DNA of 64,000 bases from Acinetobacter sp. C32I (GTDB lineage Bacteria > Pseudomonadota > Gammaproteobacteria > Pseudomonadales > Moraxellaceae). The notes beneath the pieces were generated by a model that saw only the letters and a list, made by a program, of their open reading frames with translations, did no database searches and was not told the DNA's origin. A program made the translations under genes and the position numbers. Of the stretch, positions 2,173 through 53,310 are shown piece after piece (positions within the stretch are counted from its first letter, which is position 1; every line of letters begins with the position of its first letter). The stretch covers positions 3,100,001 to 3,164,000 of the forward strand of contig NZ_CP098480.1 of assembly GCF_023702715.1 (NCBI RefSeq), written 5' to 3'.

Positions 2173-2856
2173 TTATTTCACTTCAAGTAATTCAATATCG
2201 AAAATTAAAGTGCTGTTAGGCCCAATCGCATCGCCAGAACCGACATCACCATACGCTAGATTTGCGGGAATAAAGAAACGGCTTTTGCCACCTTCCTTCA
2301 TGGTTTGAACTCCTTCAGTCCAGCCTGCAATCACTTGGCTAAGTTTGAATTCAAGTGGATGGTTACGTGCAATTGAACTGTCGAACACGGTTCCATCGAG
2401 CAAGCGGCCTTCGTAGTTTACTTTAACCGTTGAGGTCGCTTTTGGTGATTTACCTTGGCCTTGTTGTAGCACTTGATATTGTAGCCCTGACTTCGTGGTC
2501 ATGATATCTGCTTTTTTGCCATTTTCAGCTAAAAAGGCTTTGCCAGCTTGATCATTTTTTTGTGCTTGTTCTTGAAACTCAATTAACTGTTTCGCTTCAA
2601 GACGCTTTTTATATTGGTTGAGAGCCGTTGCCATTTCTTCATCGGTTAATGAAGCCGCTTTCCCTTGAACGGCTTCTTGCAGACCTTGTACAAAAGTTTC
2701 GATATTTAAATCTTTTAAGGTTTCGGCATTGCCACGCCCCATAAGATAACCGTAGCTATAGCCCAATTGATCTTTCTGTGAACTTTTTTGTGTAATGGGT
2801 GCAGCCTGAACCGTTCCGATGGTTGCAGTAATTAAAATGAGAGCTAATCTTTTCAT
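2173..2856 (-). CDS. fklB: Periplasmic FKBP-type peptidyl-prolyl isomerase (FklB/Mip-like), copy 1
   Basis: Predicted exported prolyl isomerase of 227 residues. The signal peptide [18 protein letters not shown] is followed by an N-terminal dimerisation region with a coiled-coil stretch (roughly residues 60-110) and a C-terminal FKBP domain with [14 protein letters not shown] and AYGDVGSGDAIGPNSTL. The ATG at 2856 is preferred over the TTG four codons upstream because a GGAAGAA Shine-Dalgarno lies just before the ATG. It is the last of three tandem FKBP genes reading leftwards. Acinetobacter K loci are normally bordered by fkpA with a second FKBP gene next to it, so this copy is the probable fklB. 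The exact symbol is an assignment by position. Confidence 0.85.
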   Translation of the reverse strand: MKRLALILITATIGTVQAAPITQKSSQKDQLGYSYGYLMGRGNAETLKDLNIETFVQGLQEAVQGKAASLTDEEMATALNQYKKRLEAKQLIEFQEQAQKNDQAGKAFLAENGKKADIMTTKSGLQYQVLQQGQGKSPKATSTVKVNYEGRLLDGTVFDSSIARNHPLEFKLSQVIAGWTEGVQTMKEGGKSRFFIPANLAYGDVGSGDAIGPNSTLIFDIELLEVK

Positions 2857-2878
2857 TATTTCTTCCAAAAAATAAAGG

Positions 2879-2892
2879 AGAGCACAGGCTCT
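2879..2892 (-). repeat. Decayed copy of the inter-FKBP terminator
   Basis: Leftward AGAGC-CTGT-GCTCT hairpin followed by a T-rich tract, just upstream of FKBP copy 1. The surrounding bases closely match the stronger terminator at 3559-3580 upstream of FKBP copy 2, including the stretch into the start codon and signal peptide. This marks the duplicated segment. The stem here is only about five pairs, so termination is probably weak. Confidence 0.6.
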
Positions 2893-2899
2893 ACTTGAA

Positions 2900-3541
2900 T
2901 CACTGACGAACAGCGATTAATTCTACATCAAAAATTAAGATGCTATTGGGGGGGATCGAAGCAACCCCTTGTTCACCGTAACCTAAGTTCGCAGGAATAT
3001 AAAGTGTTGCCTTGCTACCTTCTTTCATTAACTGTAAGCCTTCAGCCCAGCCTGAAATGACTTGATTCAGCGGAAATTCAATCGGTTCACCGCGTTCATA
3101 AGAACTATCAAATACCGTTCCATCGATCAGTTGACCTTTATAATTAACTTTGACAGTAGAGCTTAGCCGAGGTGACGGGCCTTTACCAACTTGAGTAATT
3201 TTATACTGTAAACCTGATGCTGTCGTTTTGATGCCTTCTTTTTTGGCATTTTCTGCAAAAAACTGTTTACTGACGACTTCCGCATGCTGAGATGCTTGGC
3301 GTTGTTGTTGTTCTAGGTTTTTTTGGAATTCAGAATAAGCAACTTTTAATTCCTCATCCGTATACGCTGCAGGCTTTTTGGCATACGCATCGCGGATACC
3401 TTGAATAAAGGACTTTACATTTATCTCAGATGGTATTTGTTGTTTAATTTCATAGCCTAAAGCATAGCTAATTTTATCTACAGGTGCTGCGTGAACTGTT
3501 CCGATGGTTGCACTAATTAAAATGAGCGCTAATCTTTTCAT
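2900..3541 (-). CDS. Periplasmic FKBP-type peptidyl-prolyl isomerase, middle copy (apparent chimaera)
   Basis: Exported FKBP-type prolyl isomerase of 213 residues starting at the ATG at 3541; an in-frame TTG four codons upstream has no better ribosome site. The signal peptide [18 protein letters not shown] and the leader DNA almost duplicate those of copy 1. The mature part ([44 protein letters not shown]) instead resembles the third copy, fkpA. The FKBP domain is complete, ending [15 protein letters not shown]. The simplest reading is recombination between tandem neighbours, leaving an fkpA-like body behind an fklB-like export signal. Function is probably periplasmic folding; substrates are unknown. 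Confidence 0.82.
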
Positions 3542-3558
3542 TATTTTTTCCAAAAAAT

Positions 3559-3580
3559 AAGGAGAGCACGAGCTCTCCTT
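3559..3580 (-). terminator. Rho-independent terminator downstream of fkpA
   Basis: Leftward stem of nine pairs (AAGGAGAGC / GCTCTCCTT, four-base loop) followed on the minus strand by TATTTTTT. It lies only about 18 bases before the start codon of the middle FKBP gene, so that gene depends on read-through or on very short leader transcription. Confidence 0.75.
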
Positions 3581-3587
3581 AGATCAT

Positions 3588-4298
3588 TTACTTAACAGAG
3601 ATTAATTCTACATCAAAAATTAATGTGCTATTTGGAGGGATCGAGCCAGGAACACCTTGTTCACCGTAACCTAAGTTTGCCGGAATATAAAGCGTTGCCT
3701 TACCACCTTCTTTCATCAACTGTAAGCCTTCAGTCCAACCAGGAATCACTTGATTCAATGGGAACTCAATTGGCTCACCGCGGTCATAAGAGCTATCAAA
3801 CACTTTACCGTCAGTCAGCTGGCCTTTGTAGTGAACTTTCACAACAGAAGTTGCAGCAGGTTGCTTACCTGTACCTTCTTGGATGATTTTATATTGCAAA
3901 CCAGAAGCCGTGGTTTTCACACCTTCTTTTTTGGCATTTTCAGCTAAGAAACTATTATTGCTTGCCTCAGCTTTTTTAGTTTCATTGACTTGCTTTTGTT
4001 GTAGCTCTTTTTGGAACTCAACATAAGCTGCTTGTAACTCTTCTTCTGTGTACGCTGCTGGTTTTTGTGCATGCGCATCACGGAAACCTGTAATAAATGC
4101 ACTGGTTTCTAACTCAGGTGGCGTTTGTTTTGCAACTTCATAGCCTAGTGCGTAACTGATTTTTGCAACAGGTGCTGCATTTTTATCAGCTTTTGCTCCG
4201 CCAAGTTCAGTCGCTGGGTGTTGAGTTGCATAATAGACAGGAACTAGCGCTGCACCGCCTAAAACGGCTGCGACAACGAAAGGTAAAGCTTTACTCAT
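3588..4298 (-). CDS. fkpA: Periplasmic FKBP-type peptidyl-prolyl isomerase FkpA
   Basis: Prolyl isomerase and chaperone of the periplasm, 236 residues, the usual left boundary gene of the Acinetobacter K locus. An N-terminal hydrophobic anchor or signal (residues 2-25, [18 protein letters not shown]) is followed by an alpha-helical dimerisation region and the FKBP domain ([49 protein letters not shown]). The ATG at 4298 replaces a four-codon longer open frame that starts at a non-ATG codon. Its promoter must lie in 4299-4450, since the wzc terminator sits upstream. It is the most canonical of the three tandem FKBP genes. Confidence 0.92.
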
Positions 4299-4450
4299 GA
4301 GATGTCCCAAACTGAGATTTGAATAAAAAATATGGCATTGATCTTAGCATGTATAGGCTTAGGCATTGAATAATTAACAGCAAAATTGCATGGATTTTTT
4401 GTATGGGGACTGGGCCATTTGTTAAATCAGTAAGTATTCTTGTTGCAATA

Positions 4451-4505: not shown

Positions 4506-6626
4506 TTATTTGCTGGTCTGATATTGATATTGGGTAACTTGATAGCTAGGGATTTGATCTAAGATAAGACCATCAATTTCTAGTCCTGCATTCACAAAAT
4601 AAGATTTTGCGAGTTCAATATCTTTAAGTTGTGTTTGACCATATTGCACTAAACAGAGATTAAAACCTGTAAATTGAGCAAGATTCAAACTATCAGACGT
4701 TGCAAGTATAGGAGTGGAGTTGATTAATATATAATCATATTGTTTGCTGACCTGCTGCATCAATTGAGCAAAAATCGATTGATGTGAGCAGATTGAAGCC
4801 TCATCATTGCTTTGTCCATGGCTAATTAAACTTAAATTTGGATAAGTCGTATTCACCACAATTTGATCTAAGTTGGCTTGACCACGTAAATATTCAGATA
4901 AGCCTACTTTTGAAGTACTCTTAAAAAGTAGGTCGAGTTGACCCTGATAAAGATCGCTATCTATAACTAAGACTTTCTGCCCAGTTTGACTGAGATAAAG
5001 TGCCAAATGTTGAGCAATGATACCTTGGTTCTGATCAGGTGTAACACTTGTTAAGAGTGTAACGTTATGTTGTTTTTGTTGTAACTTAAAACGTAAAGTT
5101 GGGATAAATGTTTTGAGGGCTTGTAACTCAGGAGTTGACTTATGCTTTGCTTTAGGTAATTCAGCATAAGTTTTAAGTCCAACAGCATGCTCAATTTCCT
5201 CACGCTGGCGTACCCCTGTTTGGAGTAAATTACGGACTAATGCAATTAAGACACCAATGAAACCACCCACAAGAATAGAGAGAATTAAAATAATTAATTT
5301 ACGGGGTTTGATCGGTTTGGTCGGTTCTACAGGATAATCTAAAACACGTAGATTCCCTGTTTCGCCTGCTTTAGCTAAGCTTAATGATTGATATGTTCCT
5401 AACAGGTTGGTGTACATCTGAGTTTGAACTTGCACATCTCGATAATATTGCAAATACTGGCTTTGTGTATTTGGCAGTTTTTTTAATGCACTATTTAACT
5501 CATTAATTTTATTGTTAAAAACGCCAATTTGTGCATTAATTTCCTGCATCATTGGATGTTGTGCAGTATATTGTGCTGCTAACTGAGCTTGCTTTTGCTC
5601 TAGTTGAACTTTCTGTGTTTCCAGTTCAACACTTTGTTTTAAATAAAGAGCTGCCTCTTGTTGAATATCAATAGTACCGTGAGTTTCACGGAAAGCATTA
5701 AACTTTTGTTCAGCCTGCTCTAAGCTATCTTTCAGTTGAGGTAGCTGCTTGTTCAAAAAGCTTAAAGTCTTTTCTTTTTCTGCAGACTTTGTTGCAAGGT
5801 TCTGTTCTTGGTAAATTTGGAGAATATGATTTAACACTTTCATGATATGGGCTTTATCGGTCCCATCATAATTAATCGTGATAATTCCTGTTTGTTTTGC
5901 AAGTTCGGCGGCTTTAAAGCTGAGTAGAATTGCCTTGACTGCTGCAAGCATCGATTGTTTCTGTACAATATACTTGCCGTCTAATGGTTGTTGAGCTGAT
6001 ATGCTAATTTTCCATGATGTGCCAATCGGATTAGAGACAGCTTTTTGATTGAGGGATCCTTTATATACTTCTAACCCCGTCTTTTCTGAAACCAGACTAA
6101 AACTTTGTCCATTGAAACTTAAAATTAGGTTTTGATCAAGATATTGTGATGGAACATCAAATTGATGGATAGAAAAAGCCGTTTTATAATTTCTAATTTT
6201 TACCTGATCAGCAAGATAATTGGTATGAAACTGATCCGTATTAAAAAGACTGTCAAAAAAAGATTGATCAGGTTGAATCTGAATATCAAGATTTAGGTCT
6301 TGAATCGTTTTGGTTAGAATAGAACGAGACTGTAAAATTTCAATTTCAGTCTGAATAGACTGTTGACTCCCACCAAGATTAATCCCTGCTAAACTACCTA
6401 AAGAGGCTAATTGAGGGCTGAGACTTGCTAACCCGCTTTGCTTATTATCAATAATTTGAATTTTTGCATCAACAGAATAGGTTTTTTTTGCAATTTTAAG
6501 ATAAGCACCTGCACAGATTAAGCTCAGTACAGTACAAAAAACGACTAGTTTCCATTGTACGATAAGTGAGAAAAATAACTCTCTGAGGTCAATCGTGTCA
6601 TCAGTCAGTTGCGTATTTTGATTCAT
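4506..6626 (-). CDS. wzc: Capsule polysaccharide co-polymerase Wzc, with eroded tyrosine-kinase motifs
   Basis: Inner-membrane PCP-2a protein of 706 residues that normally couples Wzy polymerisation to export through Wza and carries a cytoplasmic BY-kinase domain. Visible in order: membrane segment about 26-46; Wzz domain; long coiled coil about 290-385; proline-rich PVEPTKPIKPRK (432-443) leading into the second membrane segment 443-465; kinase-like domain from about 500. In that domain Walker A is lost: SVTPDQNQG (527-535) stands where GxxxxGK[ST] is expected, with Gln534 at the lysine position. Walker A' DSD (556-558) persists. Walker B reads YILIN, with Asn636 in place of Asp. Only three C-terminal tyrosines (695, 700, 702) remain. 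No wzb gene lies beside it. I infer a co-polymerase that has lost or reduced kinase activity. Confidence 0.9.
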   Translation of the reverse strand: MNQNTQLTDDTIDLRELFFSLIVQWKLVVFCTVLSLICAGAYLKIAKKTYSVDAKIQIIDNKQSGLASLSPQLASLGSLAGINLGGSQQSIQTEIEILQSRSILTKTIQDLNLDIQIQPDQSFFDSLFNTDQFHTNYLADQVKIRNYKTAFSIHQFDVPSQYLDQNLILSFNGQSFSLVSEKTGLEVYKGSLNQKAVSNPIGTSWKISISAQQPLDGKYIVQKQSMLAAVKAILLSFKAAELAKQTGIITINYDGTDKAHIMKVLNHILQIYQEQNLATKSAEKEKTLSFLNKQLPQLKDSLEQAEQKFNAFRETHGTIDIQQEAALYLKQSVELETQKVQLEQKQAQLAAQYTAQHPMMQEINAQIGVFNNKINELNSALKKLPNTQSQYLQYYRDVQVQTQMYTNLLGTYQSLSLAKAGETGNLRVLDYPVEPTKPIKPRKLIILILSILVGGFIGVLIALVRNLLQTGVRQREEIEHAVGLKTYAELPKAKHKSTPELQALKTFIPTLRFKLQQKQHNVTLLTSVTPDQNQGIIAQHLALYLSQTGQKVLVIDSDLYQGQLDLLFKSTSKVGLSEYLRGQANLDQIVVNTTYPNLSLISHGQSNDEASICSHQSIFAQLMQQVSKQYDYILINSTPILATSDSLNLAQFTGFNLCLVQYGQTQLKDIELAKSYFVNAGLEIDGLILDQIPSYQVTQYQYQTSK

Positions 6627-6710
6627 AAGGAAACAACTATTTAAAATTTGAAGAAGCAGTGTGCAGAGTCTTTGATATTTCAGTCATGAGAATGACATAC
6701 TCATGTCTAT

Positions 6711-7808
6711 TTACTTACCTAATTGGTCAAAACTATAAAGTGCTGTAGAGAACGGTATAATTTGATTGACCATACGTTGCCAACGAGTCAAGCCTGTTGC
6801 ATCAATATAGACAATGTCATTTTTCTGCATTGCAAATTGATTGGCTAAAGCAAGATTACCCAAGCTACTCAAATTCAATTGGTAAATAGTCGAGTGTTGA
6901 GTTTTCAAATCTGTTCGCATTACATAAATGCGGGCAGCACTAGCTGTGTACGGGTTGATGCCTTCGCTTTCACCAAGAACATCGCTTAGGGTCATACCTT
7001 GATCGCGTAAGGGTAAAGCTTGACTTTTACTTGATTCGCCCATTACATAAAGTTTCTGGTTTTGTTTAGTATTTACAAAAATTGTATCATTCGGTTGAAT
7101 CATTAATTTATGTAGAGAATAACCATTTTTTTCTAAGGCAACTAAATTTAAATTATAGGTGATGCCTCTTCGAATCAATTGTATTGATGTGTTATCGCCA
7201 GTTTCGGTGTTAATCCCGCCCGCCATGCCAAGTGCCGTATATAAGCTAATTGGCTGATCATTTAGCGTATATTGTCCACTCTTCATGACTTGTCCATTTA
7301 CAAAGTAACGATTTCCTTCATAGGATAAGACACGAACAATGACATCTGGTGTTTTTAAATATTTTGCAAACTGCGAGCGTAGGTAACGGTTAGTTTCAGC
7401 AAGGGTTTTTCCAGAAATATGTACTTGCCCAACCAAAGGTAATTGAATATTTCCATTACTATCAACTACATAACCTGTGCTTCTTATGTTATTTCCATCT
7501 TGAAGTGGAGGGGTGATTTCAGGATAGGCCCATAACTGGATAGATAAAATATCACCTGTGTTTAAGTGATACTGTGTATGTGATTGCTGAAATAATGAAG
7601 TTAAATTATTTTGGTTGATGTTAACAGATTCAAGGTTTAGAGACGGCACGTTTTCTTGTGTCAGTTGTACAACAGTAAGGTTGACACCTTGTTCTGTGGT
7701 AAAGTCCCCATTTTCAGGTAAGTCATGTGTCTGAAGACCTGAAGTGATTGCACAACTTACAGCACTAATACTAAGAGTAAGAATCGAAAAAAGTTGGTAA
7801 TACTTCAC
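6711..7808 (-). CDS. wza: Outer-membrane capsule export lipoprotein Wza
   Basis: Octameric outer-membrane translocon for capsule polysaccharide (OPX family). I chose the GTG at 7808: an AAGGG Shine-Dalgarno lies six bases upstream, and this start gives a compact lipoprotein signal, MKYYQLFSILTLSISAVSC, with the modified cysteine at 19. The TTG at 7841 would give 376 residues; the GTG gives 365, close to my recollection of the genus. The polysaccharide-export domain (YHLNTGDILSIQLWAYPE) is followed by SLBB repeats (YFVNGQVMKSGQYTL, KLYVMGESS). Only 84 bases separate it from wzc, where wzb usually sits, so wzb is absent. Confidence 0.92.
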   Translation of the reverse strand: MKYYQLFSILTLSISAVSCAITSGLQTHDLPENGDFTTEQGVNLTVVQLTQENVPSLNLESVNINQNNLTSLFQQSHTQYHLNTGDILSIQLWAYPEITPPLQDGNNIRSTGYVVDSNGNIQLPLVGQVHISGKTLAETNRYLRSQFAKYLKTPDVIVRVLSYEGNRYFVNGQVMKSGQYTLNDQPISLYTALGMAGGINTETGDNTSIQLIRRGITYNLNLVALEKNGYSLHKLMIQPNDTIFVNTKQNQKLYVMGESSKSQALPLRDQGMTLSDVLGESEGINPYTASAARIYVMRTDLKTQHSTIYQLNLSSLGNLALANQFAMQKNDIVYIDATGLTRWQRMVNQIIPFSTALYSFDQLGK

Positions 7809-8312
7809 ATGAAACCCTTGGATAATCTTATTTTTAATCAATACCTATCGCCCTGTATGAATCATCAATAGGCAAAGGATGCTAAATCGCGATGATTTTA
7901 TCCCAAAAGATTAAAAAAACATAATAATCTTTTCGTGGGATTGTTGAGAAATCAGATATAAACAATTTGCTTTATAAAACAATTTGATTTAATTCAATAT
8001 TTAGTGAAAAGTAATCAATGGATAGATTTAATTTAAAGTGGAAGTCATTTAAATAAAATAGAGTGAAGCGCTAACAAATTGATGAAATTTGTTATATTAT
8101 GCCGCATTGTATTCTCCTCACTAATTTGAAGTGTTTTAAGTCTTATTTTCTCATTTTTTCAGTGAAATAGGATGAAATCCAAAGTAAACAATCTAGTGCC
8201 TACATAGCCGATATTTTTCGAAATATTTTATGGGTTGTTCATGGATGCTTTAAGTTGTGTGGAAGATATCAAGCTTAGATAGAGTCTATTCGATGCAGTA
8301 TAGTGGAAAAAT
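7809..8312. promoter_or_regulatory. Divergent regulatory region between wza-wzc and the capsule biosynthesis operon
   Basis: AT-rich non-coding stretch of about 500 bases without a plausible gene. It must carry promoters for both directions. Two inverted repeats stand out. At 7900-7912 / 7926-7941, ATCCC-AAAAGATT pairs with AATCTTTT-CGT-GGGAT around an A-rich loop. At 8073-8079 / 8087-8093, AACAAAT pairs with ATTTGTT immediately before a TATATTAT tract. The second could be an operator or transcript-start hairpin for the rightward operon. No consensus JUMPstart/ops sequence was found. Confidence 0.5.
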
Positions 8313-11986: not shown

Positions 11987-13492
11987 TTGTCAAAACTCAA
12001 AATAAATATTTTTGCCAGCTATATCAGCCAAATTTATATTATTGTGATTAGCCTTCTTATTCTGCCGCTATACATGAAATATATGGGAGCAGAAGCTTAT
12101 GGCTTGGTTGGCTTTTTTACCATGTTACAAGGTCTGTTCATGCTACTTGATTTTGGTCTAACCCCAACAATTAGCAGACAAACAGCTCAATTTAATGCTG
12201 GGGTGGGAACAGCTTTAGTTTTCCGTCAATTATTCAGAGCATTAAGCATAATTTTTGTAGCAATCTCACTAATCGGTACAACATTGATTTTGAGTCTTGA
12301 TAATTATATTGCTTTGAACTGGCTTAAACTTCAGAGCCTAAATATTACGGATGTTTTATTTGCATTACAGGTCATGGCAATTTGCGTTGCACTACGTTGG
12401 ATGACGGGTTTGTATCGAGGGGTGATATCTGGCTTTGAAAAAATTATGTGGTTGAGTGGGATAAATACTCTAGTTGCCACACTCAGATTTCCTGGTGTAT
12501 TAATATACATGTATTGCTTTGGTTTTAATGTAAATAATTTTTTTATTTTTCAACTTATTATAGCTATTTTTGAGTTCTTTATATTTTTAATAAAAACTTA
12601 TACGTTATTACCTAAAATTAATTCTGGTGATGTTTTGAGTTGGTCCTTGGCTCCCGTTAAGCCTTTGTTAGGCTTTGCTTTAACAATTGCTTTTACCTCT
12701 TCAGTATGGGTTTTGCTGACCCAATTAGATAAATTTGTTTTATCAGGCATTTTAACTTTATCTGATTATGGATATTTCTCTTTGGCGGTGTTAGTTGCTG
12801 GTGGAGTATTGCAAATTAGCACACCAATTAGTTCAGTTATTATGCCAAGAATGGCTCACTTACAAGGCGAGCAAAAATTTGCTGAGATGCGCGAAGTTTA
12901 TTTAAACTCGACTCAGCTTATAGCTGTTATAGTTGTTTCTGCTGGCATTGTTCTATCTGCACTGGCTGAGCCAATACTATATGTTTGGACTGGAGATACA
13001 TTGTTAGCGGCGAAAACTGCACCAATATTGAAATTATATGCTTTAGGTAATGCTTTATTAGCGTTAGGTGCTTTCCCTTATTATTTGCAATATGCAAAAG
13101 GTGATCTAAAATATCATTTTTTAGGCAATATCATCAGTGTTGTTTTGTTGATACCTGTTATAATTTGGTTTGCTCAAATTTATGGGGCAATTGGAGCAGG
13201 ATGGGTTTGGCTTATATTTCAAATAGTCTATTTATTAAGTTGGGTAAGCTTTGTTCATATGAAAATAGAAACTGGTATTAATACTAAATGGTTTAAATCT
13301 TTTTTGCCGACTATTTTTATGGTATCTCTTTTTGCTTTTTCAATATCATATTTTTTTAACTTTTCTCAGCTTCGTTTAGTTGCATTTATGCAAATAGCCA
13401 TCTTTAGTATCATGAGTCTATTTATTGCACTATTGTGCTCGAATTCAGTAAGAAGCGTACTAAAACATAAATTATTAAAGAGTGCGTCATGA
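11987..13492 (+). CDS. wzx: Capsule repeat-unit flippase Wzx
   Basis: Polysaccharide-specific MOP-family transporter of 501 residues with about 12-14 hydrophobic segments; carries undecaprenyl-linked K units across the inner membrane. Typical features are the opening segment with YISQIYIIVISLLILP, then MGAEAYGLVGFF, and LDFGLTPTISRQTA. Start is a TTG at 11987 with GAGTG seven bases upstream; no convincing ATG lies near. AT-rich and lineage-specific, like the rest of the variable block. Its stop overlaps the next start (ATGA). Confidence 0.88.
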   Translation: MSKLKINIFASYISQIYIIVISLLILPLYMKYMGAEAYGLVGFFTMLQGLFMLLDFGLTPTISRQTAQFNAGVGTALVFRQLFRALSIIFVAISLIGTTLILSLDNYIALNWLKLQSLNITDVLFALQVMAICVALRWMTGLYRGVISGFEKIMWLSGINTLVATLRFPGVLIYMYCFGFNVNNFFIFQLIIAIFEFFIFLIKTYTLLPKINSGDVLSWSLAPVKPLLGFALTIAFTSSVWVLLTQLDKFVLSGILTLSDYGYFSLAVLVAGGVLQISTPISSVIMPRMAHLQGEQKFAEMREVYLNSTQLIAVIVVSAGIVLSALAEPILYVWTGDTLLAAKTAPILKLYALGNALLALGAFPYYLQYAKGDLKYHFLGNIISVVLLIPVIIWFAQIYGAIGAGWVWLIFQIVYLLSWVSFVHMKIETGINTKWFKSFLPTIFMVSLFAFSISYFFNFSQLRLVAFMQIAIFSIMSLFIALLCSNSVRSVLKHKLLKSAS

Positions 13493-14337: not shown

Positions 14338-15434
14338 AGGTTTTACTTTTAGTTCCTGATTTAGTTGTTGGTGGAGTAACAACGATAGTTGGAAATTTAG
14401 TAAAACATTTAAAAGTAAGAAACTATCAAGTTGTTGTTGTATCTATTTTTGATAAACCGGCTGATATCTTAGAACCTAATGTGAAAACTTTAGGTGTGAA
14501 AAATATTTTAGATTTACCTCAAGCAATTTTTAAACTAAGAAAAATTATATTAAATGAAAGTCCAGATGTAGTTCATAGTCATACTATATTTAGTCATCTA
14601 TTGGTTTCTATCATTAAGAAGTTTTTTGTTAATAATATAAAGTTAATATGTACAGAACATGGGACTTTGAGCAAAAGTGAATCTCAAACTCATTATATGA
14701 AAATATTTAAGAAAATAAATCATGTTGTTGATTTAATGACATTTGTTAGTTCTGCTAGCCTAAAAAGTTATGAGAAATACAATATTATTAATAACAACTT
14801 AAAGAGCCAAGTTGTATATAATGGCATTGATATAAAAAAATTTGAAGAAAACAATGAGATAAGAAATTTTATGCGTAGTCAATATTCTATTGATGAAGAG
14901 ACTACCGTGTATGGCTCATTTGGGAGATTGGCACCTGAGAAAAATATTGAATTGTTTCTAAAAGCTCTTGTAAGGTTGAAAGGAAGAGTCAAGTTTAAAT
15001 TTTTTTTAATTGGAAATGGTACGGAAAAAGATAGTGTCTTAAGTGCAGTAAAAGAGTTAAATCTGACAAATGAACTGATTTATATTCCTTTTACAGATAA
15101 AATTGCAGACTATATGAACGCTATAGATATTTTATGTCTAAGTAGTACAACGGAAGGACTACCCACAGTAATTATAGAAGCCATGAGTTGTAAAAAAATG
15201 GTTGTAGCTACGGAGGTTGGTGGTGTGGTTGAAATTTTACCAGAAGGCCAACGATTTCTTGTTAAGAGTGGTGATGAAATCGATCTAAGCAATCAATTGA
15301 TAAAAGTCTCTTTATTAGGAAACAAGAGTCAACTTGGAAGCTTATATCATCAGATTGCTGTAGAAAAGTTTAGCGTAGACGTTATGCTTGAGCAATGGAT
15401 TCAAGTATATGAACAATCATGCTTTAAGCATTGA
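14334..15434 (+). CDS. Family 4 glycosyltransferase (capsule repeat-unit assembly)
   Basis: GT-B fold retaining transferase of 366 residues. The N-terminal domain opens with LLVPDLVVGGVTTIVGNL. The C-terminal donor-binding domain has GSFGRLAPEKNIELFLKAL (about 197-215) and the E-x7-E element in SSTTEGLPTVIIEAMSCKK. Starts in the ATGA overlap with the preceding gene and ends close to the start of wzy. Specificity unknown. Confidence 0.87.
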   Translation: MKVLLLVPDLVVGGVTTIVGNLVKHLKVRNYQVVVVSIFDKPADILEPNVKTLGVKNILDLPQAIFKLRKIILNESPDVVHSHTIFSHLLVSIIKKFFVNNIKLICTEHGTLSKSESQTHYMKIFKKINHVVDLMTFVSSASLKSYEKYNIINNNLKSQVVYNGIDIKKFEENNEIRNFMRSQYSIDEETTVYGSFGRLAPEKNIELFLKALVRLKGRVKFKFFLIGNGTEKDSVLSAVKELNLTNELIYIPFTDKIADYMNAIDILCLSSTTEGLPTVIIEAMSCKKMVVATEVGGVVEILPEGQRFLVKSGDEIDLSNQLIKVSLLGNKSQLGSLYHQIAVEKFSVDVMLEQWIQVYEQSCFKH

Positions 15435-15438
15435 TAAA

Positions 15439-16668
15439 ATGGCTATATGTAGGTGTGCTGTGATAAATGATGGAGTTTTTAAAAATTTTATTTTCTTTAT
15501 TTTATTATTTATTTATTTAATTAATATTAAGTTATTTTTTTCTGATTTACCTATTTTTTATTTTTTATCTCCTTTAGGTTTGCTGTTACTGGGAAAAGAC
15601 TTTTTAACTGGTAAAGCATACAAAGGGGTAGTTAATTTTTTTATACTGATTTTTATTTTTTTTGTTATTGGATTAATATCTTTTTTAGTAAACCAGTATA
15701 ATGATTTCTTCTTTTTTAGAGAATTTTTTATATATACAATTCTATCTCTTTTTTACGTTAGATTTTTAGTATACCTTTATTTTAAATTTTTCCCTGCTGG
15801 TAATATTGATAAGATCTTTTATTTGGGTGTATTTTGTGTTTTTCTTCAGTTATGTTTGAGTCTTGCTGCATTTTTAAATCCTGCTTTTTATAATATTTTA
15901 TTTTCGATATTTTCTGATAATGTGCAGTTAGATAATGTTGAAAGTTTTGCTAAAATGCGTTTGATTGCATTGGGGACACCTTTTTTTGGCTCGGCTATTT
16001 TAAACTGCTTTATCTTAATTGTTGCAGCTGAATATTTAATAAAAAATGAAAAAAAATACTTATTTTTTCTAATGGCTTTGGTCATTATGATGCTAGGTCT
16101 TTTTAGTGCAAGAAGTACCATATTTGGTATCATTTGTTTTGTTCTCTTAGTATTGACTCAATTTTTTAATAAGTCTACATATAAATATTTTGTTTTTGGT
16201 GGTGGTGTTTTATTTTTGGGTTCAATAGTTATTTCATCCTATTTACAAAATTTAGATGCTTTAATTAAATTTGGTTTTGGTTTTTTAACAGACTTTTCTT
16301 CTTCGCAAGCTTCAGACTCTGTGTCTGATTTGCAAAGTATGTATGAGATACTTCCTAATAACATCAAAACTTGGCTGATAGGAGATAGCTTATACCGTGA
16401 TGTAAATACAGGATTCTACTACCAAGATACTGATGTAGGTTTTTTACGAATTATTTTTGTAAATGGTATAATTGGCCTGATTATTTTCTTGTCTATTCAC
16501 TTTTATGTGCTATTAGAAATAAATAAGAAATATATTAGTACTATAGCTAAGTTACTCTTAGCTGGCATACTTGTTGTGCTAAATGCTAAAGGTGTAACCA
16601 ATCTTCTGCCATATCTCTTACTTATCTATCTTTTTTCGATCTATGATCCGAATAAGATAAAAGTATAA
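15439..16668 (+). CDS. wzy: Predicted K-unit polymerase Wzy
   Basis: Very hydrophobic protein of about 410 residues with 10-12 predicted membrane spans and one larger extracytoplasmic loop (roughly residues 285-330). It is the only such protein in the locus, so it fills the Wzy role that joins repeat units on the periplasmic face. Wzy proteins are highly divergent, and the call rests on topology and position. The start is uncertain: in-frame options are ATG 15388 or 15409 (both inside the upstream gene), ATG 15439, and GTG 15460, the last having an AGG six bases before it. Confidence 0.75.
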   Translation: MAICRCAVINDGVFKNFIFFILLFIYLINIKLFFSDLPIFYFLSPLGLLLLGKDFLTGKAYKGVVNFFILIFIFFVIGLISFLVNQYNDFFFFREFFIYTILSLFYVRFLVYLYFKFFPAGNIDKIFYLGVFCVFLQLCLSLAAFLNPAFYNILFSIFSDNVQLDNVESFAKMRLIALGTPFFGSAILNCFILIVAAEYLIKNEKKYLFFLMALVIMMLGLFSARSTIFGIICFVLLVLTQFFNKSTYKYFVFGGGVLFLGSIVISSYLQNLDALIKFGFGFLTDFSSSQASDSVSDLQSMYEILPNNIKTWLIGDSLYRDVNTGFYYQDTDVGFLRIIFVNGIIGLIIFLSIHFYVLLEINKKYISTIAKLLLAGILVVLNAKGVTNLLPYLLLIYLFSIYDPNKIKV

Positions 16669-17562: not shown

Positions 17563-18738
17563 ATGACAGTTAATAGTAAAAAAGTTGTTCTAATTGGAAA
17601 CACGGCATCAAGTTTGCTAGGGTTTCGCTTGGATATGATCAAGCAGTTAATTGGTTTGGGATACGAGGTTTATACTTTTACTAGTGAGTATTCTTCGAAT
17701 GAACTTGAACAATTAAGAGAATTAGGTTGTATACCGATTCCTTATCAAATGAGTCGAGGAGGTGTCAATCCTTTTGCTGACTTAAAAACACTTATCGAGT
17801 TGAAGTCTAAGATTGCTCAAATTCAACCGATACTCGTTTTTTCATACTTTACCAAACCAATTATATACGGATCATTGGCTGCGAAGCTAAGTCATACTCC
17901 GAAGATCATAGGAATGGTGGAAGGGCTAGGTACTCCATTTACAATTCACAAAAATGGGCAAAGTTTAAAAGTTAAACTTATTCGTTTTATACAAATCTGT
18001 TTATATAGAATAGTTTTTCCATTTTTGGATAAGATTATTTTTTTAAACTCGGATGATCCTGTAGATTTAATTAAAAAGCATAAGATTTGGCATAAAAATA
18101 GTGCTGTTAATATATTAGGACCTATTGGTCTTAATTTAGATGAATATTCGTATACAAAATGGAATGAGACGGAGCCAGTTTCATTTATTTTTATTGCCCG
18201 CTTATTGGCAGAAAAGGGAATTTATGAATATATTGAAGCTGCTAAAATTGTAAAAAATAAATATCCACAAGCGATTTTTAAGATTATTGGGGGGCTTGAT
18301 AAGGAAAACCCATATGGTTTAACACAAAGTCAGCTTGATGAATTGGTGAGCTTAAATATTGTAGAATATGCTGGATTTGTAAAAGATGTAGCACAACGTA
18401 TAAAAAATACATCAGTTTTTGTTTTACCTTCATATTACCGGGAGGGTGTACCACGCAGTACTCAAGAGGCAATGGCAATCGGACGTCCTGTAATTACCAC
18501 AAATGTACCTGGTTGTAGGGAAACTGTCATCGATGGGATAAATGGTTTTCTTGTACCAAAGTGGAATGTTCAAGTATTAGCTGATAAAATGTGCTATTTC
18601 ATTGAGCATCCTGAACAGGTCAATATTATGGGGCGGGAAAGTTACAGAATTGCTCAAGAAAAGTTCGATGTAAATAAAGTAAATGAAAAATTATTTGAAA
18701 TTATGGGTTTAAATGCTGAAAATGAAAAGACTCGTTGA
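17563..18738 (+). CDS. Family 4 glycosyltransferase adjoining the initiating transferase
   Basis: GT-B transferase, 391 residues: N-terminal NTASSLLGFRLDMIKQL, then GMVEGLGTPFT, then FIARLLAEKGIYEYIEAAK and the donor-site EGVPRSTQEAMAIGRPVITT. This type of GT4 is commonly placed right before the phosphoglycosyltransferase and often adds the second sugar to the lipid-linked primer. That role is inferred from position. It overlaps the next gene by 17 bases. Confidence 0.86.
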   Translation: MTVNSKKVVLIGNTASSLLGFRLDMIKQLIGLGYEVYTFTSEYSSNELEQLRELGCIPIPYQMSRGGVNPFADLKTLIELKSKIAQIQPILVFSYFTKPIIYGSLAAKLSHTPKIIGMVEGLGTPFTIHKNGQSLKVKLIRFIQICLYRIVFPFLDKIIFLNSDDPVDLIKKHKIWHKNSAVNILGPIGLNLDEYSYTKWNETEPVSFIFIARLLAEKGIYEYIEAAKIVKNKYPQAIFKIIGGLDKENPYGLTQSQLDELVSLNIVEYAGFVKDVAQRIKNTSVFVLPSYYREGVPRSTQEAMAIGRPVITTNVPGCRETVIDGINGFLVPKWNVQVLADKMCYFIEHPEQVNIMGRESYRIAQEKFDVNKVNEKLFEIMGLNAENEKTR

Positions 18739-19339
18739 TATTGTTGTTGCATCAATAGCAATTCTACTTCTTAGTCCGGTTTTTATTTTTGTTGCTTACA
18801 AAGTCCGTAAGCATTTAGGTTCACCTATCTTTTTTTGCCAAGAACGACCTGGAATAAATGGTAAAATCTTTAAAATGATTAAATTTCGGTCAATGAAAAA
18901 TGCGGTTGATTCACAAGGCAATTTTTTACCAGATGAACAGCGTATTACACCATTTGGCCAAAAATTGCGTGCAACAACGTTGGATGAAATGCCACAATTA
19001 TTCAATGTATTAAAGGGTGACATGAGTATTGTTGGACCTCGACCACAAATGCCAGAGTTTCTTGAATACTATACAGCCGATCAAATGCGTAGGCATGAGG
19101 TCAAACCTGGTATGACTGGGCTCGCTCAAGTGAGTGGACGTAATAATTTATCTTGGGAGGAAAAGTTTGATTTAGATGTCCAGTATGTGGAAAAACATAA
19201 TACAGTATTGGATTTTAAAATCATGCTGAAAACCGTTGATGTTATGATGAAAAGAGAAGGGATTAATGCGCCAGATCAACAAGTTGGGGCGAGTCGTTTC
19301 ACTGGTACAGAGTCACAATCTAGTTCTATTGTAAAGTAA
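18722..19339 (+). CDS. Initiating phosphoglycosyltransferase (ItrA/PglC-type small sugar transferase)
   Basis: Monotopic phosphoglycosyltransferase of 205 residues that loads the first sugar-phosphate onto undecaprenyl phosphate. One N-terminal membrane-embedded helix (residues 7-27) is followed by the catalytic core: KFRSMKNAVD with the basic patch, LDEMPQLFNVLKGDMSIVGPRP with the Asp-Glu pair, and PGMTGLAQVSGRN. Start at ATG 18722; an ATG three codons upstream (18713) is also possible. In Acinetobacter this slot holds an Itr protein whose type sets the first sugar. I cannot tell which from the sequence alone. Confidence 0.88.
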   Translation: MKRLVDIVVASIAILLLSPVFIFVAYKVRKHLGSPIFFCQERPGINGKIFKMIKFRSMKNAVDSQGNFLPDEQRITPFGQKLRATTLDEMPQLFNVLKGDMSIVGPRPQMPEFLEYYTADQMRRHEVKPGMTGLAQVSGRNNLSWEEKFDLDVQYVEKHNTVLDFKIMLKTVDVMMKREGINAPDQQVGASRFTGTESQSSSIVK

Positions 19340-40901: not shown

Positions 40902-41603
40902 ATGATAAAGATGCGATGCATTGCCATGTTATTAGGCTGTTTAAGCCTATCTGCACTGCCACAAGTCAGCTTTGCTCAAGAGCAACCGACAGTAGAAGAG
41001 CTTAAACTGCGCAAAGACCAAGTCACTTATCAAGCCTATATCCCTGCAAAATATCGCTTATTTAAAGCCATTGAAGGTGACTTGAATAAAGATGGCGTGA
41101 AGGATGTGGTGCTGATGGTTAAAGCAACCGATCCCAAGGCTTTTGTTGAACATGAGTATCGTGGCCGTTTAGATATCAACCGTCGTGGCGTGATTGTATT
41201 GCTCAATGAAAAAGGTACTTACAGGCCGATTGTCAGTAACTTAAATTGTTTTTACTCGGAAAATGAAGACGGTGGTGTTTATTTCGCCCCTGATATAAGC
41301 TTAGAAATTAACAATAATGTGCTGAATGTACACTTTGCCCATGGACGCTATGGCTATTGGCGTTATCTATTTCGCTTGGAAGGCAATGATCTACGCCTGA
41401 TTGGTTATGATGATTCAAGTAATCATGGACCTTATGTTGAAAGCCAAACCAGTATTAACTTTTTAACAGCAAACAAAGTGATTCGTGAAAATTTAAGTCA
41501 AGACTTTGAAGGTGATCCAAAATTTAAAGAGAATTGGAGTAGAATTAATCAAGCGCCATTCTATTTATCGAAAATTAAAGAGTTTGATTATTTAAGCTTT
41601 TAA
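40902..41603 (+). CDS. Secreted protein of unknown function, tandem copy 1
   Basis: 233 residues with a Sec signal peptide (LLGCLSLSALPQVSFA, cleavage before QEQP). The mature part carries a calcium-binding-like loop, EGDLNKDGVKDVVLMV, as in FG-GAP or dockerin-type repeats. It also has conserved ENEDGGVYF and HGRYGYWRYLFRLEGNDLRL blocks, so a beta-rich periplasmic or surface fold is likely. No function can be assigned. The next gene is a close paralogue about 830 bases downstream. Confidence 0.8.
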   Translation: MIKMRCIAMLLGCLSLSALPQVSFAQEQPTVEELKLRKDQVTYQAYIPAKYRLFKAIEGDLNKDGVKDVVLMVKATDPKAFVEHEYRGRLDINRRGVIVLLNEKGTYRPIVSNLNCFYSENEDGGVYFAPDISLEINNNVLNVHFAHGRYGYWRYLFRLEGNDLRLIGYDDSSNHGPYVESQTSINFLTANKVIRENLSQDFEGDPKFKENWSRINQAPFYLSKIKEFDYLSF

Positions 41604-41629
41604 GGTAAGGGCGGGTGATGAGTTTGAAT

Positions 41630-41689
41630 ATTGTTGCTGCACGTTGGATTCATGCAAAACGCCAAGAGAAACTCAACCATTGTTTATAA
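41630..41689 (+). pseudogene. Remnant of the 3' end of the DUF4126 gene
   Basis: Translates to IVAARWIHAKRQEKLNHCL and a stop, closely matching the last 19 codons of the gene at 40281-40859. It sits in front of the second secreted-protein copy just as the intact end sits before the first, and the leader bases after it also match. It is the junction scar of a tandem duplication. Confidence 0.85.
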
Positions 41690-41731
41690 AAGAAATAGCA
41701 TCAATAACGACCTGAATGATGAAATAAAAAG

Positions 41732-46479: not shown

Positions 46480-47301
46480 ATGGATGAGCAAACATCCAGT
46501 TTAAAAGGATTACCACGGTTAAAACCCCGTGGCGGACTGCAAGTCATGTATGCAGCAGTTCGTGCACTTTTTTTACGCGAGTTGCAAACCCGTTTTGGTC
46601 AATACCGTCTTGGTTATGTCTGGATTTTACTTGAGCCAGCGCTACATATAGGGGTTTTACTAATTCTTTTAGGACGCATTAGTAGAGCTTTACCAGGGAT
46701 AGATTTTGAGGTCTTTTTGGTCAATGGGATTATCCCATTTTTCTTATTCCGTACGACTGTAAGTGCTTCATTAGGAGCGGTTCAAGCCAATCAAGGTTTA
46801 TTTAGTTACCGGCCAGTAAAACCGATTGATACGCTAATTGCACGTAGCTTTTTAGAGCTGTTTTTATATTTTGTGGCATATCTCTTTTTTAGTACAATTT
46901 TACTTTGGTTTGGATTTCATATTAATTTTGACTCAATTCCACAATTATTAGGATATTGGTTTTTATTGTTTAGCTTAGCCTTTAGTTTATCATTAGTATT
47001 TATGGTCGTTGGCAGTATTTCACATGAACTAAATAAATTCATCCCAGTACTTTTTCTTCTGCTCTATGTCTTATCTGCTGTCATTTATACTATTCATTTA
47101 GTTCCAATTGAATATCAACAATATCTATTATGGAACCCAATTATTCATCTTTTAGAGTTGATGCGCCATGCAGTTGCACCCAATTATCCGCTAGTTCAAG
47201 GTATTTCTTTAACTTATGTGTTGGAATGGATTATTGGCTCACTATTCTTAGGTTTGTTGCTCTATAAACGTTTTGAACAGCGTATGGTAAAAACAAAATG
47301 A
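46480..47301 (+). CDS. kpsM: Capsule ABC-2 transporter permease KpsM (Wzm family)
   Basis: Membrane subunit of a group 2-type capsule exporter, 273 residues with six hydrophobic segments. Amphipathic N-terminus RALFLRELQTRFGQYRLGYV then WILLEPALHIGVL, the ABC2_membrane pattern typical of KpsM/CtrC/BexB. Overlaps kpsT by four bases. It pairs with KpsT to move lipid-linked polysaccharide across the inner membrane. This mechanism differs from the Wzx/Wzy system encoded at 8.3-24 kb. Confidence 0.94.
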   Translation: MDEQTSSLKGLPRLKPRGGLQVMYAAVRALFLRELQTRFGQYRLGYVWILLEPALHIGVLLILLGRISRALPGIDFEVFLVNGIIPFFLFRTTVSASLGAVQANQGLFSYRPVKPIDTLIARSFLELFLYFVAYLFFSTILLWFGFHINFDSIPQLLGYWFLLFSLAFSLSLVFMVVGSISHELNKFIPVLFLLLYVLSAVIYTIHLVPIEYQQYLLWNPIIHLLELMRHAVAPNYPLVQGISLTYVLEWIIGSLFLGLLLYKRFEQRMVKTK

Positions 47302-47969
47302 TTGAGCTACGCAATCTAACCAAATCCTATGTGACTCCTAAAGGGCGGCACTATGTTTTTAAAGATTTAAATGTCACTTTACCCGAAAACAAAAGCGTAG
47401 CGATCTTAGGTAAAAATGGTGCAGGTAAAAGTACGCTACTGAGAATTATTGGTGGGATTGACTTTGCTGATAGTGGCAAAGTAGTGACCAATAAGTCCAT
47501 TTCTTGGCCTGTAGCATTATCGGGTGGCTTTCAAGGTAGCCTGACTGCACGACAAAATGTTCGTTTTGTTGCTCGACTTTATTTAAGTAATGAGGATGAG
47601 GTAAACCAAATTATTGATTTTGTCGAATCCTTTGCTGACATTGGTAAATATTTTGATATGCCGATTAAAAGCTATTCATCGGGTATGCGTGGTCGTATTG
47701 GTTTTGGCCTGAGTATGGCATTTAATTTCGATTATTATCTACTTGATGAAGCAGGGGCTGTTGGTGATGCCAATTTTAGGAAGAAGAGCCAAGTCCTATT
47801 GGATGAGTTAAAACAGAAATCCAATATTATTATGGTGTCGCACGATTTAAAGGACTTAACCCGAAATTGTGATGTGGCTTTTTTGATGCGGAATGGTCAA
47901 GCGGAATTTTTTGCAGATATTGCAGAGGCAATAGAGGTTTATAAAGCATATGCGGTCAATAACAAATAA
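47298..47969 (+). CDS. kpsT: Capsule ABC transporter ATP-binding subunit KpsT
   Basis: ATPase subunit of 223 residues. Walker A GKNGAGKS (38-45), signature YSSGMRGR (126-133), Walker B YYLLDEA (146-152) and the switch histidine His182 are all intact. Lacks the long C-terminal extension of carbohydrate-binding Wzt, so it is of the KpsT type. Overlaps both neighbours, which points to strict co-translation with kpsM and kpsE. Confidence 0.95.
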   Translation: MIELRNLTKSYVTPKGRHYVFKDLNVTLPENKSVAILGKNGAGKSTLLRIIGGIDFADSGKVVTNKSISWPVALSGGFQGSLTARQNVRFVARLYLSNEDEVNQIIDFVESFADIGKYFDMPIKSYSSGMRGRIGFGLSMAFNFDYYLLDEAGAVGDANFRKKSQVLLDELKQKSNIIMVSHDLKDLTRNCDVAFLMRNGQAEFFADIAEAIEVYKAYAVNNK

Positions 47970-49050
47970 GGGTTTGGTGATTAGTTACATCGCCATTGTG
48001 ATGTTGCCAATATTGCTCATCATTATCTATCTCTGTTTCTTTGCTCAAGAGCGTTTTGTATCTCAATCGACTTTATTGGTGAAGCAAGTAGGTGAAGTAT
48101 CTGATGTATCAGCTTCAAATGGCCTAAGTACTTTACTTGGTGTTAGTAATACCAGTAATGAGGATGCACATATTTTAACGGCTTATATTAGTTCGCGTAA
48201 TATGGTCGAAAGTCTGGATAAAAAACTTAACTTGCGTAAAGCCTTTATTGCACAAAATGATCCCATTTTTGGCTTAAACTCTGATGCGTCAATTGAAGAC
48301 TTAGTAAAGTATTTTAACCAACGAGTCCAAGTATCTTTGGATGAAAAAACCATGATGATGACCATTGCATCGCAGGGTTTTAGTTCAGGTTTTGCTCTGC
48401 GTCTTAACCAAGAAATTCTAAAGAATAGTGAAAGTTTTATTAATGATCTTTCACAACAAATTGCGGAAGAGCAACTTAAGTTTGCCGAAAAGCAATTAAG
48501 TGAGGCAAAAGAGCAGTTAGATGCTTCGCGTGATGCGCTATTGGATTATCAGAATAAGAATCAGATGTATGATCCACAGGCGCAAGCGCAAGTTGTAGCA
48601 ACCGTGGTTGCTAGCCTCGAATCTAATCTGGCACAACTACGCACTGAGGAAAGAACCTTATTAAGCTACTTAAATGAAACCGCTCCACAAGTGGTGGCGA
48701 TCCGTAGTCAGATTGAATCGGTGCAAAAGCAAATTGCCGATGAAAAGGCTAAATTGACTTCACCAAATACCAGCAAACTCAATAAGAGTGTAGCAGATTT
48801 TGAAGCCTTAAAAGCCAATGTCGACTTTGCAACTGATCTTTATAAACTTTCATTGGCATCGCTTGAAAAAGCCCGTTTGGAAGCTTCGCGCAAGCTGAAA
48901 AAACTGGTGGTAGTGTCTACCCCAGAGTTGGCACAAGATGCAGTTTATCCAAAAACACTCTATTTGATCGCGACTTATTTTTTGGTCTTAAATATTTTAT
49001 TTGGTATCACGATGTTGATTTACTCGATTATCCGTGAGCATAAGGAGTAA
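47950..49050 (+). CDS. kpsE: Capsule polysaccharide co-polymerase KpsE (PCP-3)
   Basis: 366-residue inner-membrane protein with one hydrophobic segment at each end (about 10-30 and 336-358) and a periplasmic domain with a long coiled coil (about 170-290). This is the KpsE/CtrB/BexC topology that bridges the exporter to the outer-membrane channel. Begins 20 bases inside kpsT. There is no kinase domain, as expected for PCP-3. Confidence 0.92.
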   Translation: MRSITNKGLVISYIAIVMLPILLIIIYLCFFAQERFVSQSTLLVKQVGEVSDVSASNGLSTLLGVSNTSNEDAHILTAYISSRNMVESLDKKLNLRKAFIAQNDPIFGLNSDASIEDLVKYFNQRVQVSLDEKTMMMTIASQGFSSGFALRLNQEILKNSESFINDLSQQIAEEQLKFAEKQLSEAKEQLDASRDALLDYQNKNQMYDPQAQAQVVATVVASLESNLAQLRTEERTLLSYLNETAPQVVAIRSQIESVQKQIADEKAKLTSPNTSKLNKSVADFEALKANVDFATDLYKLSLASLEKARLEASRKLKKLVVVSTPELAQDAVYPKTLYLIATYFLVLNILFGITMLIYSIIREHKE

Positions 49051-49055
49051 GCACA

Positions 49056-50732
49056 ATGAAAAAAATATTATTCACCAGTATGTTTGCATTGTCTTCTTTT
49101 TATAGCTTTGCCGCAGATACACAGTCTCTTTTACCACAAGAGTTAGCAAATAATTTACCTCAAGTAAATAATGAGGTTCCAGATAATACCATTTTACCAA
49201 GTCAATCTGTGGTTGGCTTGTCTCCAAGCAGTGCACAAAAGTATCCCACAGCAACCAAAATGTTTGGTGAACAGCTGTTTAAAGGTGCGTTTGCCAGTAC
49301 TGCAGGTTCGACATTTAACGACAGCTATGTACTGAATCCTGGCGATAATATCAATTTACGTCTATGGGGCGCTTACCAGTTTGCCGGCACTCTAACCGTG
49401 GACCCGCAAGGTAATATTTTTATTCCCAATGTAGGTCCTGTTAAAGTGGCAGGTACCACCAATGGCCGCTTGCAATCCTTGATTGAAGGCTATGTCCGTA
49501 AAACCTATGTCGCCAATGTTGGGGTCTATGCTGCCTTGGTCCAGTCGCAGCCGGTTAAAGTCATGGTTACAGGTTTTGTGAATCAGCCTGGCTCTTATGG
49601 TGGTGTCGCCAATGACAGCGTACTGGCATATCTTGACCGTGCCGGTGGTGTCGATGCGCAACGTGGTAGTTATGTTGATATCCGTATCATGCGCAATGGC
49701 CAGCTCAAGCAATACGTCAATCTGTATGACTTTTTAATTGCAGGCAAACTACAGCCTTATAGTTTCCGAGATGGTGATGTCATTGTGGTTGCGCCACGAA
49801 GTCATACCTTCTCGGTCTCGGGTGAGGTGTTTAATGCCTATGACTTTGAATTTAATGTGCCTGAAGTCACCGTTGCACAGGCGTTATCGGTAGCGAAACT
49901 AAAACCAGGGGCGACCAATGTCAGCATTATGCGTCGTCAGGGTACAGAGTACCGCAGTGAATATTATCCGCTCTCTGCTGCAAATAATGTAGTGATTGAA
50001 GATGGTGATATCTTAACGGTGACGGCTGACCGTTATGCTGGCACGATTCAGGTACGCATTGAAGGGGCTCATAATGGTGCACATGCGGTGGTATTGCCAT
50101 ATGGTTCCAAACTATCTGAAGTGATGAAACAGATTCAGCCGAATACCTTGTCAGAGGTCAATGCATTACAGCTTTTCCGTCCATCGGTTGCCAAGCGACA
50201 AAAGGAAATGCTAAACGTTTCTTTAGATAAACTTGAAGAAGCAACACTTTCTGTACGCTCAACCACGCAGGAAGAGGCTAATCTACGCGTAAAAGATGCT
50301 GAACTGGTTAAACAGTTTATTGCAAAAGCCCGTACGATTCAGCCAAAGGGCCAAGTGGTATTGGATCCGAAAGACTTTGATGATGTCATTTTAGAAAATG
50401 GGGATATATTAAATATTCCTGAAAAAACTTCGGTCATTATGGTGCATGGTGAAGTGACTTTCCCGAATGGGGTGGTATGGCAACCCAATATGACGGCACA
50501 GTCTTATATTGATCAGGTCGGTGGTTTTACCCAGAAGTCGAATAAATCGAAACTAGTGGTGATTCATCAGAATGGTGAGTCTGAGCTGGTCAGTAAACGC
50601 TATAAGATTCAACAGGGGGATGAAATTTTAGTTCTTCCTAAAGTACAGACCAAAGTGGTGGAATTAACGCGGGGCATTACCCAAGTATTATTCCAAATTG
50701 CGGTTGCAGCCAAAGTGGCATTGGATTTATAG
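49056..50732 (+). CDS. kpsD: Capsule outer-membrane/periplasmic export protein KpsD (OPX)
   Basis: 558 residues with a cleavable signal peptide (MKKILFTSMFALSSFYSFA) and no lipobox. Polysaccharide-export domain around YVLNPGDNINLRLWGAYQF, then SLBB repeats (VMVTGFVNQPGSY; FSVSGEVFNAYD; IMVHGEVTFPN). Works with KpsE to carry the polymer through the periplasm and outer membrane. The order kpsM-T-E-D on one transcript is clear. About 135 bases separate it from wecB. Confidence 0.94.
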   Translation: MKKILFTSMFALSSFYSFAADTQSLLPQELANNLPQVNNEVPDNTILPSQSVVGLSPSSAQKYPTATKMFGEQLFKGAFASTAGSTFNDSYVLNPGDNINLRLWGAYQFAGTLTVDPQGNIFIPNVGPVKVAGTTNGRLQSLIEGYVRKTYVANVGVYAALVQSQPVKVMVTGFVNQPGSYGGVANDSVLAYLDRAGGVDAQRGSYVDIRIMRNGQLKQYVNLYDFLIAGKLQPYSFRDGDVIVVAPRSHTFSVSGEVFNAYDFEFNVPEVTVAQALSVAKLKPGATNVSIMRRQGTEYRSEYYPLSAANNVVIEDGDILTVTADRYAGTIQVRIEGAHNGAHAVVLPYGSKLSEVMKQIQPNTLSEVNALQLFRPSVAKRQKEMLNVSLDKLEEATLSVRSTTQEEANLRVKDAELVKQFIAKARTIQPKGQVVLDPKDFDDVILENGDILNIPEKTSVIMVHGEVTFPNGVVWQPNMTAQSYIDQVGGFTQKSNKSKLVVIHQNGESELVSKRYKIQQGDEILVLPKVQTKVVELTRGITQVLFQIAVAAKVALDL

Positions 50733-50768
50733 GGATAAATTGATTTTTTGCATGGATTGCTTATAGCG

Positions 50769-50792
50769 CCTTGATGGGTACTTGGATCAAGG
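50769..50792. other. Hairpin between kpsD and wecB
   Basis: CCTTGAT / ATCAAGG, seven pairs around ten bases, followed by a run of A's rather than T's. Possible mRNA processing or attenuation point between export and biosynthesis genes; termination rightwards is unlikely. Confidence 0.35.
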
Positions 50793-50867
50793 TAAAAAAA
50801 TATGTTGAGAGTATATGGTGTTGAAACAATAATTTTTAAATAAATTATTGAATAACTTGGTGAAAGT

Positions 50868-51989: not shown

Positions 51990-52044
51990 TTGTAAATTGT
52001 TAATGAAAAGTAGAACCATATTTTAAATATTGCAGAGAATATTC

Positions 52045-53286: not shown

Positions 53287-53310
53287 TCGGATTGGGGGAG
53301 TGACTTAACT

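Follow-up and report, generated by a model that had tools for sequence, protein, structure and literature searches.

A kinase-dead Wzc without wzb in Acinetobacter sp. C32I, a putative scaffold-type polysaccharide co-polymerase

In the Escherichia coli model, polymer is made for the capsule only if Wzc alternates between a phosphorylated and an unphosphorylated state, and two papers describe both phosphorylation and dephosphorylation as required (PMC8285477; PMC11986026). The same papers describe the E. coli K540M variant of Wzc as a stable octamer, a third reports a stable Wza-Wzc complex for K540M (PMC12881504), and recognition by the phosphatase Wzb is placed at Wzc residues 508-514 in a nuclear magnetic resonance study, as cited in PMC11986026. 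Pseudokinase co-polymerases are already known outside Acinetobacter, namely EcpK/EpsV, HfsA/HfsB, and rhizobial proteins; one paper describes or cites EcpK/EpsV, HfsA/HfsB, and fused polysaccharide co-polymerase (PCP) pseudokinases (PMC12004946), and another describes PssP2 of Rhizobium leguminosarum, which is missing the Walker motifs and the tyrosine cluster (PMC4182512). Within Acinetobacter, the literature states that wza, wzb, and wzc are always present in A. baumannii (PMC9676051) and that three A. variabilis loci hold a second wza and wzc (PMC12904642); no report of a kinase-dead Acinetobacter Wzc was found among the titles and abstract openings listed by capped searches of an open-access library. 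Here we describe the wzc gene of Acinetobacter sp. C32I within a window of 64,000 nucleotides (contig NZ_CP098480.1, positions 3,100,001 to 3,164,000; coordinates below count from its first letter), the product of which has lost its kinase motifs and probably acts as a scaffold, free of the phosphorylation cycle found in other Wzc proteins.

The wzc gene (4506..6626, - strand) is an uninterrupted reading frame of 706 amino acids (aa) encoding a polysaccharide co-polymerase whose cytoplasmic domain is a pseudokinase, as identified from the open reading frame (ORF), the Pfam domains Wzz, GNVR, and AAA_31, and the predicted fold. Wzz and GNVR score well above cut-off and share a single chain with a cytoplasmic bacterial tyrosine kinase (BY-kinase) fold, which marks the protein as PCP-2a, or Wzc by descent; TIGR01007 falls below its cut-off (95.3 bits vs 108.05). 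Residues were mapped by a phmmer alignment of the cytoplasmic part to E. coli Wzc, with an offset of 6. Here the Walker A lysine, E. coli K540, is Q534 (codon 5025-5027) within TSVTPDQNQGI (residues 526-536; 5019..5051, -), and the Walker B aspartate, E. coli D642, is N636 (4719..4721, -); a preliminary description, made from the window's sequence, had read both substitutions correctly, as it had the number of tyrosines in the C-terminal tail (residues 694-706; 4509..4547, -), three, which are Y695, Y700, and Y702 (ORF and alignment). It had missed the loss of the EX2RX2R motif, where E508/R511/R514 of E. coli are Q502/K505/I508 (residues 502-508, E. coli 508-514; QALKTFI; 5103..5123, -), and had not mentioned that the Walker A' DxD pair is retained (D562/D564 of E. 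coli, D556/D558 here; 4953..4961, -). Among the marks of an active BY-kinase the DxD pair is present, and the Walker A lysine, the Walker B aspartate, and a tyrosine-rich tail are absent.

The wza-wzc gap is only 84 bp long (6627..6710), and the earlier claim that it holds no wzb was confirmed by the ORFs and by tblastn with 126 Wzb proteins, which detected no remnant in any of nine gaps beside copies lacking the Walker A lysine (hereafter dead copies; best E 0.064). Of the remaining dead copies, eight allowed this gap to be measured, at 73-134 bp. For comparison, 175 Acinetobacter species genomes were surveyed, of which 169 matched Wzc at E up to 0.001. Since eight of these matches were weak (E 8e-5 to 9e-4) and six genomes gave none, 161 genomes were taken to have Wzc and 14 to be without a real one (G013, G119, G124, G153, G155, G156, G027, G052, G072, G101, G112, G144, G162, and G163). 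The 174 copies read cover all 161 genomes, and multi-copy genomes may hold further copies. The Walker A lysine was present in 164 copies and absent from ten (nine with Gln, one with Thr). The Walker B aspartate occurs in all 164 lysine-bearing copies. EX2RX2R is intact in 163 of them, the remaining one carrying Lys at the position of the first Arg, and 163 have four to ten tail tyrosines, the exception (none) being truncated at 661 aa; four deviate at DxD. The ten dead copies have zero to three tail tyrosines and no intact EX2RX2R, nine have lost the Walker B aspartate, and all ten keep DxD. An adjacent wzb, defined by its active-site motif within the flank examined, was found in the wza-wzc gap for 150/164 lysine-bearing copies vs 0/9 testable dead copies; the tenth, L020, lies at a contig edge and was left out of this count.

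A wider search with the kinase part recovered 80 proteins, which were then aligned. Gln occupies the lysine site in 45 of them (P0001-P0045, own included), mostly as PDQNQ or a near variant; a second form, GTST, occurs in eight (P0047-P0054), P0046 is canonical, and P0060, a distant match, also lacks the lysine. Some of P0001-P0045 come, by their source names, from A. higginsii, A. proteolyticus, and A. vivianii. Three tail tyrosines are kept in P0001-P0034, with two, one, or none in other dead branches, and DxD is lost in P0040. Source names of P0002, P0003, P0013, P0017, P0033, and P0034 say tyrosine kinase, so that some kinase-dead Wzc proteins carry this name in public databases and caution is in order. 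An assembly or sequencing error at the motif codons is ruled out because Q534 recurs in six other genomes, in proteins 74-85% identical to this one; Gln is there also in 44 further protein clusters (P0002-P0045; the sets overlap in species), and the chance of such an artefact is vanishingly small.

The dead domain is under strong purifying selection, with a ratio of nonsynonymous to synonymous substitution (dN/dS) of about 0.02-0.10, and its BY-kinase fold is predicted to persist, as compared by VIA-align. Both agree with the preliminary view that this is not simple decay; the domain is thus the product of neither error nor decay. Additionally, 43 residues are fixed in the seven core dead copies, each of them rare (<2%) in lysine-bearing copies.

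In a tree of the pre-kinase part (residues 1-480, 76 rows; the lysine-bearing copies, 140 at that stage, were thinned at 80% identity to 58), all 18 lysine-less rows fell on one side of a branch with a Shimodaira-Hasegawa-like approximate likelihood ratio test (SH-aLRT) support of 99. The free tree of the kinase part needs two changes for lysine loss, whereas a tree holding the lysine-less copies together scores higher (p 0.78 in the approximately unbiased test, p-AU). This grouping and the p-AU speak against separate losses by K to Q and by K to T, with L156 standing apart; a single origin of the lysine-less allele is favoured, not proven. Vertical inheritance within one species clade was not borne out: in a tree of one gene, rpoB, from 30 chosen genomes, the dead label is scattered and needs six changes, four of them forced by supported branches. 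The likeliest history is one old origin after which the allele passed from species to species, or else a large number of replacements. In L014 and L018, the pseudokinase (3') half of wzc is nearly identical (dS 0.14) and the 5' half saturated, which suggests that the 3' half was exchanged between species.

The genome of Acinetobacter sp. C32I (4.19 Mb, two contigs, 100% complete) yielded no wzb elsewhere. Its single low-molecular-weight protein tyrosine phosphatase (LMW-PTP; PF01451, 168 aa, at C1:677133) adjoins a murB-like gene, diverges from the 126 Acinetobacter Wzb proteins (24-34% identity), and was rejected as an unlinked wzb; a search for CpsB/CapC-type phosphatases (PF19567), made in this genome only, found none. 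The cognate phosphatase of a Wza-Wzb-Wzc cycle is thus missing from both gap and genome. Likewise, none of the ten dead genomes (G130 being 91% complete) yielded an unlinked wzb; their LMW-PTPs are all murB-linked or arsC-like. One of each occurs in the six other core dead genomes and in G050; G041 has one murB-linked and two arsC-like enzymes, one of the latter (L065) without ArsR-like or ACR3-like neighbours; and in G130 an arsC-like enzyme is the sole one found. The second enzyme of the six core genomes and G050, and that of G130, are termed arsC-like because they adjoin an ArsR-like regulator and an ACR3-like transporter; the names MurB, ArsR, ArsC, and ACR3 are presumptive, given on the look of the sequences and not by family search.

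These enzymes bear on whether Wzc might still be phosphorylated, through residual non-canonical activity or another kinase in trans, with the murB-linked LMW-PTP replacing Wzb. The presence of that enzyme in the C32I genome, the tyrosines retained in P0001-P0034, and the DxD of all ten dead survey copies would fit; however, no protein above the BY-kinase cut-off was found in nine dead genomes, the enzyme has low identity to Wzb, as given above, and the putative Wzb-recognition region is lost. Moreover, the murB-linked enzyme was found, always adjoining the murB-like gene, in 12 genomes, nine dead (own, G099, G041, G022, G133, G074, G037, G097, and G050) and three canonical (G118, G161, and G063), and not in G130; because dead and canonical genomes share it, it is not a private substitute for Wzb. 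Continued phosphorylation is therefore improbable.

The reading that we favour, with fair but far from complete confidence, is that Wzc is a permanently unphosphorylated, scaffold-type pseudokinase co-polymerase, a natural counterpart of E. coli K540M. It is classed as a Wzc by descent, not as a BY-kinase; we infer that it works like the phosphorylation-independent PCP-2 group, and that the locus functions without phosphorylation. Its predicted BY-kinase fold is stripped of catalytic motifs, and it sits in a Wzx/Wzy locus, with Wzy assigned by position only. Self-phosphorylation would be impossible, which would fix Wzc in the K540M state, an unphosphorylated octamer able to hold Wza and Wzy. 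Within it, the tail of one subunit may still dock on its neighbour by way of the remaining DxD pair and the few conserved tail tyrosines, in a contact that is structural only. Once there was no phosphotyrosine left to hydrolyse, and the region that Wzb recognises (E. coli 508-514) was lost, wzb would have become dispensable and then have gone. The co-polymerase, and not a phosphorylation cycle, would govern how chains grow and are released, as is the case for Wzz or EcpK/EpsV. To the extent that sequence can decide, the interpretation of the preliminary description is supported.

Several observations weigh against this scaffold reading. The EX2RX2R motif is also tied to ring assembly, and an octamer that lacks it could be weaker; three tail tyrosines are still present; and the putative Wzy polymerase (15388..16668, +), named from its position and apparently membrane-rich sequence, has no Pfam or NCBIfam match. 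In the survey, one dead copy, L156, keeps the Walker B aspartate. The joint loss of kinase motifs and wzb claimed earlier stands in that no testable dead copy has an adjacent wzb, but the coupling is not strict, as 14 lysine-bearing copies in 14 genomes (L113, L115, L120, L137, L162, L167, and L177-L184) also lack one. In 11 of these genomes a second copy has wzb, and in G161 and G063 wzb sits between a wza and another wzc; G118 (99% complete), however, keeps all Wzc motifs with no wzb and only a murB-linked LMW-PTP. Thus wzb can vanish from a genome whose kinase motifs are intact, no example of the opposite was seen, and loss of wzb alone is not diagnostic. Finally, since the E. coli capsule needs kinase and phosphatase according to the studies cited at the outset, one would predict that a protein like K540M fails.

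The surrounding K locus is of the Wzy type. Adjoining wzc is wza, encoding an outer-membrane export protein of 376 aa (6711..7841, -; Pfam SLBB_2 and Poly_export), and the locus further includes a Wzx-type flippase (11987..13492, +; PF01943) and an initiating sugar-phosphate transferase (18713..19339, +; PF02397, with TIGR03025 below cut-off). Three tandem FKBP-like genes, named from their translations only, lie beside wzc (2173-4310, -). No second Wzz-domain protein was found in the C32I genome, Wzc being the sole one. Two tandem paralogous, secreted-looking proteins of 233 aa and unassigned function are encoded at 40902-42433. The same window holds a second capsule locus of the ATP-binding cassette (ABC) transporter type (46480-61287), with KpsM, KpsT, KpsE, and KpsD-like genes (46480..50732, +; matches below NCBIfam cut-offs, plus gene order), a glycosyltransferase, and a putative polysaccharide lyase (57894-58655).

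This second locus raises the possibility that kps took over as the capsule and the K locus became secondary, the kinase part being a fading relic and Wzc acting only in the manner of Wzz, to regulate the length of a polymer that is short or low in abundance. KpsE (E <1e-100) was found in 31/175 genomes, namely 7/10 dead, 16/151 lysine-bearing, and 8/14 Wzc-less ones (Fisher p 4.5e-5 and 1.1e-4, with kinship not removed); the seven core dead genomes, own included, are the top seven KpsE matches (87-100% identity), and in each KpsE lies 37-46 kb from wzc on the same contig. The thinning of tail tyrosines in other dead branches would also suit a relic, whereas the intact frames under purifying selection and the 43 fixed residues would not; moreover, KpsE was not found at this threshold in 3/10 dead genomes, and on the rpoB tree kps and dead wzc agree in only two to three independent pairs, with none disagreeing (p 0.25 at best). 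As a cause of kinase loss, kps was accordingly rejected, the link being one of association only, and a relic is unlikely, if the most plausible of the rival explanations. A shade less likely still is that the dead domain has taken on a new switching role, in which the conserved PDQNQ loop and the Gln-rich YQxxQYQYQ tail bind some new partner or ligand, this binding and not phosphorylation controlling octamer assembly, and that the wza-wzc module moves between species with the ABC-type capsule locus, giving two export systems per cell without a tyrosine cycle.

Kinase, tail, and phosphatase were removed together here and the machine kept; with motif-intact congeners available for comparison, this natural joint loss makes the purpose of the phosphorylation cycle directly testable. 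The A. baumannii rule that wza, wzb, and wzc are always present fails for other Acinetobacter. Compared with known systems, the protein shares with E. coli and canonical Acinetobacter Wzc (PCP-2a BY-kinases) the Wzz and GNVR domains, the predicted BY-kinase fold, and the K-locus place beside wza and fkpA-like genes, but is without the Walker A lysine, the Walker B aspartate, EX2RX2R, the full tyrosine tail, and wzb. It has lost the same lysine as E. coli K540M, described as a stable unphosphorylated octamer; that variant, however, is artificial and otherwise wild type, and kinase loss is reported to halt E. coli capsule assembly. EcpK/EpsV of Myxococcus and HfsB/HfsA of Caulobacter, as described, likewise pair a BY pseudokinase with a PCP-2 in a Wzx/Wzy pathway as a proposed phosphorylation-free scaffold, but there the pseudokinase is a separate protein and here it is fused. 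Sinorhizobium meliloti SMc01795, Mlr8439, and VV1_2305 (cited in PMC12004946), together with PssP2, resemble it in combining PCP and pseudokinase in one chain, a likeness drawn from their published descriptions and not from sequence; the Acinetobacter group differs in keeping DxD and usually three tyrosines, and in standing beside wzb-bearing, motif-intact relatives in a single genus.
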